A DNA stretch of 64,000 nt, taken from Alteripontixanthobacter maritimus (lineage in GTDB: Bacteria > Pseudomonadota > Alphaproteobacteria > Sphingomonadales > Sphingomonadaceae). Location: contig NZ_QBKA01000002.1 in the NCBI RefSeq assembly GCF_003340475.1, positions 2,427,501 to 2,491,500 of the forward strand, read 5' to 3'. This document shows, piece by piece, positions 30,886 to 42,177 of the stretch (position 1 is its first letter; every line of letters begins with the position of its first letter). The notes beneath the pieces were generated by a model. That model made no database searches and was not told where the DNA came from. It worked only from the letters and a program-made list of their open reading frames with translations. A program made the position numbers and the translations under genes.

Positions 30886-31353
30886 ATGGGCGAAGCTGCA
30901 AAACACCATCACCACGAACATTCCGGCGAAAAGCTGGTCGATGCCGCGCGCAATTCCCTGGTGGAATCGGGCGAACAATGGACTGGTATGCGCGAGGCAG
31001 TGTTCGCCGAACTCGCCCGGCACGAACGCCCTGCCAGCGCCTACGACATTGCCGACAATCTGGGTAAGGCACGCGGCAAGCGGGTGGCCGCCAACAGCAT
31101 TTACCGCATTCTCGACCTGTTCGTGGCCAACAACCTCGCCATGCGGGTCGAAAGCGCCAACGCCTACCTCGCCAACACACATCCCGGCTGCGCGCATGAT
31201 TGCATCTTCATGGTGTGCGACGAATGCGGAGAAGCCACCCATGTCGATGACGACGCGGTATCGCAGCGCATCAGAGGCGTTGCAGCGGAAAGCAATTTCA
31301 CGGCGCGGCGCCCGATTATCGAAATTCGCGGGCTATGCAGCGCCTGCCGGTAA
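30886..31353 (+). CDS. Fur-family transcriptional regulator (Zur-like)
   Basis: The 155-residue protein has a winged-helix N-terminal domain (TGMREAVFAELARHERPASAYDIADNL, KRVAANSIYRILDLFVANNLAMRVES) and a metal-binding C-terminal domain with HPGCAHDCIFMVCDECGE and a final CSAC, the structural zinc cysteines of Fur proteins. Residues 7-12 are a His-rich run (HHHHEH). Conservation of the C-x2-C pairs and the alphaproteobacterial pattern suggests Zur rather than Fur or Irr, but this is a guess. It lies 46 bases after msrA. Targets were not identified. Confidence 0.87.
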   Translation: MGEAAKHHHHEHSGEKLVDAARNSLVESGEQWTGMREAVFAELARHERPASAYDIADNLGKARGKRVAANSIYRILDLFVANNLAMRVESANAYLANTHPGCAHDCIFMVCDECGEATHVDDDAVSQRIRGVAAESNFTARRPIIEIRGLCSACR

Positions 31354-31452: not shown

Positions 31453-32205
31453 TTATAGCTTCGCGCCTCCCGACGCGTCGATCACCTGGCCGGTAACCCA
31501 GCCACTATCCGGACCGGCCAGAAATGCGGCCACTCCGGCGATATCGTCCGGCTGGCCGATCCGTTTCAGCGCCTGCATGTTGCGCGCATTCTCACCGCCT
31601 TCTTCGCTTTCCAGCCAAGCGGACATATCGGTCAGAATGGCGCCCGGTGCCACTGCGTTTACGCGGATGCCACGTGGGCCCCATTCGGCTGCAAGGTCGC
31701 GCACCAGCGTGTTCACCGCGCCTTTGGTCAGCGCATAAGCGGGTATTCCGGAAAAATGCGTCTGAGCCACGATGGAGCTGGTGAACACCACGCGGGCATC
31801 ATCCGCAAACCTGTCCGCCAGCCCCGTTGCCAGCAGGAATGGTGCGCGGACATTCACTGCCAATTGCCGGTCGATCACCGCCGCATCGGTATCGGCAAAG
31901 TCCACGAACTCGGCCACTCCGGCGTTATTCACCAGGATATCGAGCTTGGCCTCGCCCAGCAGCCTCTCGGTTTCGCGAGCCAGTTCTGCCGGTCCTGCGG
32001 GGTCGAGCAGATCACCTTGCAGCGAAACGGCGGAGCCACCCTCGTCCGCGATTTCTTTGACAAGAGCGTCGGCGGCGTCGGCGGACTGGCCATAATGCAC
32101 TAGCACATGCGCCCCGTCGGCAGCGAGACGGCGGGCAATAGCCGCGCCGATCCCGCGCGAGGCCCCGGTAACAAGGGCAGTTTGGTTGTGAAGTGATTTG
32201 CTCAT
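31453..32205 (-). CDS. SDR-family oxidoreductase
   Basis: The 250-residue classical short-chain dehydrogenase shows the NAD(P)-binding TGASRGIGAAIA, NNAGVAEF, the catalytic Ser (SSIVAQTHF), Tyr-x3-Lys in YALTKGA, and the RVNAVAPGAILTDMS motif. It probably reduces or oxidises an alcohol/ketone in the cytosol. An AAGGA site precedes the ATG at 32205. It is divergent from an ArsR-type regulator with two shared operators, so it is very likely that regulator's main target. Substrate unknown. Confidence 0.93.
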   Translation of the reverse strand: MSKSLHNQTALVTGASRGIGAAIARRLAADGAHVLVHYGQSADAADALVKEIADEGGSAVSLQGDLLDPAGPAELARETERLLGEAKLDILVNNAGVAEFVDFADTDAAVIDRQLAVNVRAPFLLATGLADRFADDARVVFTSSIVAQTHFSGIPAYALTKGAVNTLVRDLAAEWGPRGIRVNAVAPGAILTDMSAWLESEEGGENARNMQALKRIGQPDDIAGVAAFLAGPDSGWVTGQVIDASGGAKL

Positions 32206-32296
32206 GATATTCGTCCTTGATTGTGGGCTGGCAACAACCCTGCTCGGGGGCCGCGGCATTGCGACCATGTCGATGAAATAGGCGCATTGAGCATTA

Positions 32297-32313
32297 GTTC
32301 AATATATCCGAAC
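32297..32313. promoter_or_regulatory. Operator 1, GTTC-N9-GAAC
   Basis: GTTC-AATATATCC-GAAC is a symmetric site in the spacer between the divergent SDR and ArsR genes. An equal-format site lies 32 bases further (32329-32345), about three helical turns. Confidence 0.6.
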
Positions 32314-32328
32314 AATAGAAAAATTGAA

Positions 32329-32345
32329 GTTCGACATTCCGGAAC
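32329..32345. promoter_or_regulatory. Operator 2, GTTC-N9-GAAC
   Basis: AGTTC-GACATTCCG-GAACT, a 5-base-arm inverted repeat ending 12 bases before the GTG start of the ArsR-type gene. Same arms and spacer length as operator 1, so both are probably bound by that regulator. Confidence 0.65.
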
Positions 32346-32357
32346 TATATCGTTTGT

Positions 32358-32678
32358 GTGGCCCGCTTCATTCACCCTGACCTTGCAGATGTACCGCTTG
32401 CCGCGGCGCTGCACGCGCTGGCCGATCCATCACGCCTGAATATCGTGCGCCGTCTGGACGAAGATCGCCGTGATGGTGGCGCCGGGCTATCATGCAGCGA
32501 CGCAGCTTGCCCCGAACTTCCGCGGGCGACGATGTCGAACCATTACAACATCCTACGCGCAGCTGGACTGGTCGAGGCTCGCAAGGACGGCGTTCGGGTG
32601 CTGCATCGGTTGCGCCGCCAGGCGGTGGATGCTCGGTTCCCCGAGCTACTCAATGCCGTGCTCGCCGCTTCGGCCTGA
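32358..32678 (+). CDS. ArsR-family transcriptional regulator
   Basis: The 106-residue winged-helix protein starts at a GTG and shows [18 protein letters not shown], then the recognition helix [22 protein letters not shown] and [10 protein letters not shown]. Two cysteines (C46, C51) lie in [13 protein letters not shown], away from the usual CxC metal site, so thiol or redox sensing is as likely as metal. It is divergent from the SDR gene and likely represses it and itself through the twin GTTC-N9-GAAC sites. dxs follows after 46 bases in the same direction. Confidence 0.88.
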
Positions 32679-41391: not shown

Positions 41392-42177
41392 ATGAATCAC
41401 AACGCTATTTCGCCGCCGCAGCCGCGACCGCAAGTCTCGTCCGCATCGCCCGCTCCTTCGAGCCCGGCATCCAATAACGCCGCCGGTCACGACCGCTACG
41501 ATGCCGATATGCCCAGCGACATCGATGGTCGGCAGGATGAACGGGTCACGCTGCTGATCCGTCCAGCCAAGCTGATTACCGGCAGGGGGGAGTTCCTGGC
41601 GGTCATCAGAGACGTGTCGAGCTCCGGACTGTGCCTGCGCTTTTTCCATCCTGGCCCTTCGGACCATCGCTGCGAACTGGAATTGAGAAGCGGCCAGCGG
41701 CATCGTCTGGACCGGGTCTGGGGCCGGGAGATGGAAGCTGGGTTCCGCTTCCACGAACCCACCGATCTGCGCCTGATCGTTTCTGAAAAAGGTCCCTATG
41801 GCAGCCGCCATTTGCGCTTTTCCCTGGACCTTGCGGTCCAGTTGCGCGTCCGCGGCGCGTCTGGCCGCGCGCAAATGCTTAACCTGTCGCAACAAGGTGC
41901 TCTGGTGCGTTGCGATCAGCCTCTGGCCACAGAACAGCGCCTGATTCTGACCGCAGACGGCCTGCCCGAAATCGAGGCGCGCGTTCGCTGGTGCAGGGGC
42001 GACCTTTATGGCCTCGTGCTCGACACCACCATCTCGATGCGCGAACTGGCCTGTTTCGTGGCGACGTTGCAGGGGGCAGGTAACCACGCGGCCTACCGGC
42101 ACGAAGCGATGTCTGGAATGGCTATGCATCGGGCCGCGGTAAACCTGCCATCGCACGGAGACCCGCACCCGCGTTAA
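41392..42177 (+). CDS. PilZ-domain protein (tandem PilZ-like domains)
   Basis: The 261-residue protein has a disordered Ser/Pro/Ala N-terminus, then a first PilZ domain with the c-di-GMP motif elements DERVTLLIRPAKL and VIRDVSSSGLCLRF (R-x3-R-like and D-x-S-x-x-G), and a second, weaker one (RFSLDLAVQLRVRG, MLNLSQQGALVRCDQPL, ARVRWCRGDLYGLVLD). It probably binds cyclic di-GMP and acts in the cytosol. A GAGAGG site lies before the ATG. It is followed 74 bases on by the UGM-like flavoprotein, so it may regulate glycan export, which is inference from position. Confidence 0.85.
   Translation: MNHNAISPPQPRPQVSSASPAPSSPASNNAAGHDRYDADMPSDIDGRQDERVTLLIRPAKLITGRGEFLAVIRDVSSSGLCLRFFHPGPSDHRCELELRSGQRHRLDRVWGREMEAGFRFHEPTDLRLIVSEKGPYGSRHLRFSLDLAVQLRVRGASGRAQMLNLSQQGALVRCDQPLATEQRLILTADGLPEIEARVRWCRGDLYGLVLDTTISMRELACFVATLQGAGNHAAYRHEAMSGMAMHRAAVNLPSHGDPHPR

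Follow-up and report, generated by a model that had tools for sequence, protein, structure and literature searches.

Two ArsR-family regulators, RexT of Nostoc sp. PCC 7120 and CyeR of Corynebacterium glutamicum, are presented in the accessible text of the RexT report as redox regulators of the thiol-switch type rather than metal sensors (PMC8960804). RexT is a sensor of H2O2 with structures in the PDB (7TXM, 7TXN, and 7TXO), and residues C41, R61, T68, and N77 are given as those of its peroxide activation. It recognizes the palindrome ATTCG-N15-CGAAT, and As(III), Cd, and Zn reportedly left its DNA binding unaffected (PMC8960804). The same report states that, within a cluster of 7085 sequences, RexT alone has been investigated both biochemically and structurally, and cites the work on CyeR, which depends on one cysteine and controls an old yellow enzyme (PMC8960804). 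PyeR of Pseudomonas aeruginosa is described, in the available part of its report, as an ArsR-family autorepressor of the pyeRM-xenB operon, which is upregulated by HOCl and also regulated by MexT (PMC7950407). No open-access paper on an ArsR of this kind linked to a short-chain dehydrogenase/reductase (SDR) was found among titles and the beginnings of abstracts, a scope that leaves most subscription journals outside; PMC3543383, considered as such a paper, is unrelated to judge by the accessible part of its text.

The window analysed here, a 64,000-nt stretch of the Alteripontixanthobacter maritimus genome, contains a gene for a 106-aa RexT/CyeR-like repressor of the ArsR type (32358-32678, plus strand, GTG start at 32358; HTH_20, 5.7e-8), whose two cysteines are C46 and C51. 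It is divergent to a gene for a 250-aa SDR (31453-32205, minus strand, ATG at 32205; adh_short_C2, 2.7e-54), and the two start codons are separated by a gap of 152 bp. The SDR is a classical short-chain dehydrogenase/reductase by its motifs, TGASRGIG at 13, NNAG at 93, and YALTK at 157. The gene arrangement sets the locus apart from all three described systems: the partner of RexT is thioredoxin, whereas here a divergent SDR lies upstream and a dxs-like gene downstream; CyeR pairs with an old yellow enzyme, the kind of partner seen at 10 of the 64 loci compared below, and the window partner is an SDR; PyeR belongs to a single operon with MexT control, in contrast to the divergent pair of the window. 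By its description PyeR is nevertheless to be set beside the window regulator, since both are ArsR-family proteins with a reductase as neighbour (the xenobiotic reductase XenB in the PyeR operon, the SDR here).

Farther out, a Fur-family gene with a His-rich N-terminus adjoins the SDR gene (30886-31353; Zur-like by NCBIfam, below cut-off), and a Fur-type gene was also seen by eye upstream of arsR at locus L002. The dxs-like gene follows arsR closely, from 32678 onward. Dxs-like motifs also lie 3′ of arsR in L037, L038, and L039, and none were seen after arsR in L002 or L036; their presence in the three former loci indicates that Fur-SDR-arsR-dxs may be an old local gene order.

The regulator was compared with its relatives in a set of 64 distinct arsR loci, the window included and repeats removed. 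Searches covered 249 genomes of the family, 396 of the order, and 385 of the class, overlapping samples that each hold the window's own genome. Matches to the arsR group were found in 18 of the 249, at least 32 of the 396, and at least 21 of the 385 genomes; the profile searches scored no more than 12 or 13 candidates in any one genome, so that a genome lacking a match need not lack the gene. A scan of genome contigs with the regulator protein added one distant relative, L019, which was left out of the set together with the matches in G453 and G251 (no locus sequence). L020-L022, L032, L033, and L035 were dropped as repeats of L006, L010, L008, L002, L007, and L001, respectively; L072-L075 repeat earlier places, L076-L090 entered by their coordinates only, and L069 is not in the tree.

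The closest solved sequence to the regulator is 7txm, the oxidized form of RexT (phmmer, 2.8e-18, residues 5-104). Both proteins combine an ArsR fold with the absence of metal motifs, as far as the RexT report is accessible; R26 and R61 of RexT are kept as R26 and R67, Lys50 of RexT is aligned with Arg56, and C46 occupies the place of RexT C40/C41, an equivalence uncertain by one residue. The window protein resembles CyeR, which is described as depending on one cysteine at the RexT C41 place, in that a second cysteine stands further on, seven residues away in CyeR and five here. Across the alignment, residue 46 is Cys in 61 of 64 sequences (the exceptions being L044, L045, and L069), Arg26 is invariant, and Arg67 is kept in 63; C51 lacks such conservation of position (7/64 with Cys). 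L044 and L045, both SDR-linked, have a Cys two residues before place 46 and another further on. The vicinal pair C40-C41 of RexT is represented by C46-S47 in the window, and no sequence has Cys at residue 47 (0/64). The places of RexT T68 and N77 are occupied by A74 and H83; residue 83 is Asn in 52 sequences and His in three (L001, L002, and L037), and the two places read A/H in the window protein and L037 and G/H in L002. Because these two places differ and the vicinal cysteine pair is absent, the peroxide chemistry of RexT is not simply transferable to a protein of this sequence. With a Cys at the C40/C41 place and no metal motif, the regulator fits the broad RexT/CyeR-like description by sequence, and it probably functions in the manner of that group, though it is not a RexT proper. 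A single-sequence structure model (mean pLDDT 46.7) was too poor for use.

A metal- or arsenite-sensing ArsR would find some backing in NCBIfam, in which a metalloregulator subfamily model ranked first at 48.7 of the 55 bits required, all five listed models falling below cut-off. This reading is highly improbable. The first-pass annotation had placed the two cysteines, which it numbered correctly, outside the standard metal motif, and inspection agrees: neither CXCXXC in helix 3 nor DXHX10HXXE in helix 5 is present, and metal sensing was rejected on that ground. It is also disfavoured by the reported indifference of RexT, the nearest solved relative, to the three metals named above, and by the window neighbours, among which no metal transport gene was seen by eye.

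The SDR-arsR gap contains two palindromes of the form GTTC-N9-GAAC, neither with a strand: site 1, the conserved operator candidate (GTTCAATATATCCGAAC, 32297-32313, with flanks TA...AA, 32295-32315), and site 2, the extra candidate (GTTCGACATTCCGGAAC, 32329-32345, with flanks AA...TA, 32327-32347). Relative to the arsR start, site 1 begins at -61 and site 2 at -29; from the beginning of site 1, the SDR start is 92 bp away. The first-pass annotation had described twin sites of this pattern 32 bp apart, offset by about three helical turns, with the second just before the GTG of the regulator; both 17-mers are indeed present, the start-to-start distance of 32 bp amounts to ~3.05 turns at 10.5 bp/turn, and 12 nt lie between the end of site 2 and 32358. 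RexT binds in the gap between its own and its target gene, as its report describes, the same kind of gap that holds the candidate sites, although its palindrome, ATTCG-N15-CGAAT, differs from GTTC-N9-GAAC.

The bare core is too common to serve as evidence and was rejected as such. The window holds three copies, compared with 0.66 expected (3 of 100 shuffles reach three), and the whole genome holds 84, compared with 42 for the reversed control, three of the 84 lying in a stretch apparently duplicated in the assembly, with the second copy counted for two of the three. The third core of the window, at 41742-41758, is absent from the top matrix matches and was taken as chance. Matches at both ends of contig C2 of the window's own genome (G000) recur at an offset of 2559159 (two core places and one extended-palindrome place), which suggests an untrimmed overlap of ~99 kb at the contig ends. 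Of 397 family genomes, 6 carry two cores separated by 8-28 bp, the window's own included, and the reversed control gave 17 matches in 15 of the 397. With five other genomes, or ~1 in 80, carrying such twins (L092-L096), and with the control at this level, a twin core in some genome is not by itself improbable. Sites 1 and 2 stand out by their place and by their fuller match to TAGTTC-N9-GAACTA, to about which the palindrome is extended in relatives. With at most one mismatch, the 2.68-Mb genome matches this pattern at sites 1 and 2 and nowhere else; with at most two mismatches there are 26 places, compared with 84 for the control. A scoring matrix built from the N9 loci of 39 relatives, the window left out, ranked site 1 first in the 64-kb window (33.4 bits) and site 2 second (23.7 bits), while the next non-overlapping place scored only 7.2 bits.

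Conservation upstream of related arsR genes argues for an operator. In 48 of the 64 loci, the 150 nt upstream of arsR contain an exact GTTC-N9/10-GAAC; over 200 first-order Markov resamplings of these regions, the number averaged 0.185 and never exceeded 2. By spacing, 40 loci have an N9 site, 11 an N10 site (three of them as a GTAC variant), and 13 neither; the 16 upstream regions in which the exact pattern was not found include the three GTAC loci with N10. Start codons of the relatives were picked by script, as the nearest ATG before the HP motif, and the distances carry that uncertainty: the N9 site begins at -43 to -63, site 2 of the window standing apart at -29. The N9-site consensus is aTAGTTCAa.A.T.ccGAACtATt. 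The exact 23-mer ATAGTTCN9GAACTAT, which sites 1 and 2 each miss, was found in 11 of 396 genomes, once in each, and every match has, no more than 100 nt away, an arsR of this group that a separate protein-profile search identified; some of these 11 loci had served to define the extension, so that the informative part is the lack of matches elsewhere. The reversed 23-mer matched once in each of 7 of the 396 genomes. L012-L015 form a subgroup without the lysine before the recognition helix and without GTTC sites, two of which (L013 and L014) show by eye a TTTCA...TTGAAA-like repeat near the place of the GTTC site.

GTTC half-sites also occur in the boxes of other regulators. The LexA box of alphaproteobacteria is GTTC-N7-GTTC. 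That the palindromes serve a different protein, for example as an SOS-type box, is nonetheless the least probable of the alternatives weighed here: the repeat is inverted, not direct, and all 11 exact extended-palindrome matches in the 396 genomes stand beside this type of arsR, two points on which an SOS-type box was rejected. A search of the 17-bp pattern upstream of orthologues, which the first-pass annotation had proposed, thus recovered the N9 palindrome at 40 of 64 loci and sustains its operator reading as far as sequence can. In all likelihood both GTTC-N9-GAAC sites are operators, a judgement drawn from sequence, and the candidate operators and the regulator taken together can be held with high confidence.

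The divergent partner is an SDR in 39 of the 64 loci, 36 of them among the 40 with an N9 site; three SDR-linked relatives (L057, L059, and L061) have no site. The other partners are old yellow enzymes (10), ABM (2), MFS (3), an aldo-keto reductase, a zinc-type quinone-oxidoreductase-like protein, and a methyltransferase (one each), and seven loci have another partner or none. Besides that of the window, 20 partners were run against Pfam, including four SDRs and eight of the ten old yellow enzymes; the remaining SDRs were assigned by their BLAST similarity to the SDR of the window (E up to 1e-5), and the rest by sight. L004, linked to an old yellow enzyme, keeps an N9 operator, and the tree puts it among the SDR-linked N9 loci (support 95/89), a placement suggesting that the partner enzyme can be exchanged without a change of operator or regulator type. 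Operator spacing follows residue 61 of the recognition helix: all 40 loci with Asn, Gln, or Ser at this place have N9, and the 11 N10 loci have His (10) or Tyr (one), although these counts are not independent, because the N10 loci amount essentially to one split on the tree (the group holding them has support 91/76 and is drawn open).

Site 2 lies within a predicted arsR promoter (32324-32351, plus strand), recognized by eye from a -35 element TTGAAG (32324-32329) and a -10 element TATATC (32346-32351). The palindrome fills the 16-bp spacer, ending at 32345 where the -10-like hexamer begins at 32346, and the GTG follows 6 nt beyond TATATC. Among the 40 N9 loci, 23 have a TA.A[TC] that begins at -12 from the arsR start, one has it beginning at -13, and in 16 it was not found; a Shine-Dalgarno-like string was seen in just two. 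The placement of the -10-like element and the rarity of Shine-Dalgarno-like strings point to leaderless arsR transcripts, as predicted from sequence. The counterpart in L036, read by eye, is TTGGAA-17-TATATC with no site in the spacer. A stricter consensus scan found no promoter in the SDR-arsR gap of the window.

The two sites differ in their distribution. Of the 63 other loci, 39 have an N9 site that corresponds to site 1. Site 2, by contrast, has no counterpart in any of these 39, among them the five closest relatives, and in none of their 150-nt upstream regions did a second place score above -2.1 bits. In the nearest genus, a close arsR (E up to 1e-15) is present in 5 of 71 genomes and a close SDR (E up to 1e-75) in four, all among those five; the five relatives have site 1 only. 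G076 keeps site 1 upstream of its arsR, and no close SDR was found in this genome, nor was one seen by eye between its Fur-type gene and arsR. G458 and G501 of the same genus carry a more distant SDR-linked member (L047 and L049) with a single site. Since the close relatives have site 1 only, site 1 is probably ancestral and site 2 probably a gain of the lineage of the window. Elsewhere in the set of 64, a doubled operator within 150 nt is seen in L067 alone, an MFS-linked relative with two N10 sites 97 and 49 bp upstream of arsR. The twin-operator claim of the first-pass annotation is therefore divided: site 1 is conserved, but the twin arrangement is not, and the twin as a conserved device was rejected.

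This distribution, together with a score ~10 bits below that of site 1 and the twin cores in other family genomes, could mean that site 1 works alone and that site 2 is a fortuitous match. Such a coincidence is rather improbable, given that no place in 2.68 Mb other than sites 1 and 2 comes within one mismatch of the consensus of the relatives, and that site 2 lies 32 bp from site 1 on the same helix face, abutting the -10-like hexamer. Site 2 is likely to be functional.

The favoured mechanism, to which a probability of roughly 0.68 is given as a whole, is a doubled operator with thiol-triggered release, in which the SDR reduces the inducer. The 106-aa protein would act as a dimeric RexT/CyeR-like repressor recognizing about TAGTTC-N9-GAACTA. 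On site 1 it would block the divergent SDR promoter, an arrangement its relatives share; on the second operator, which would have arisen in this lineage in the spacer of arsR's own promoter, it would also block the leaderless arsR transcript directly. A thiol-reactive compound, either an oxidant or an electrophile (for example, a quinone or a reactive carbonyl), would modify C46, with C51 perhaps as the resolving thiol, whereupon the dimer would leave both sites and the SDR would reduce the inducing compound or a product of it. By analogy, an electrophile or oxidant is a plausible inducer, and a reasonable one because RexT and CyeR are redox sensors and the partners of the relatives are mostly reductases. 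The first-pass annotation, which had suggested a reactive compound handled by the SDR, is thus plausibly right about the class of inducer. The thiol step, taken separately, is somewhat favoured.

The strongest of the competing explanations, though itself unlikely, retains the same repressor and operators and assigns induction to a non-covalent ligand, for example the substrate of the SDR, with C46 in a structural role. The replacement of RexT T68 and N77 by A74 and H83 would fit it, as would L044 and L045, which lack C46 yet keep operator and SDR. These two sequences, however, have the other cysteines noted above, the Cys at place 46 is otherwise nearly universal, and RexT, and reportedly CyeR, are thiol switches in the accessible text of PMC8960804.

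The proposed mechanism, thiol-triggered release included, is ordinary in outline; the doubling of the operator and the changes of the sensor residues are the interesting part. One tentative broader interpretation is that this small branch gave up peroxide sensing and came to respond to a different thiol-reactive inducer, one that the SDR handles, that the window regulator rewired its own control through a second operator in a leaderless promoter, and that spacing across the group is set by residue 61 of the recognition helix (N9 with Asn, Gln, or Ser; N10 with His, once Tyr). The sub-branch gains a defined candidate operator, a partner gene, and a conserved Cys position, which make its sensing chemistry and its DNA code directly testable, and the presence of one operator in relatives and two in the genome of the window provides a natural experiment.
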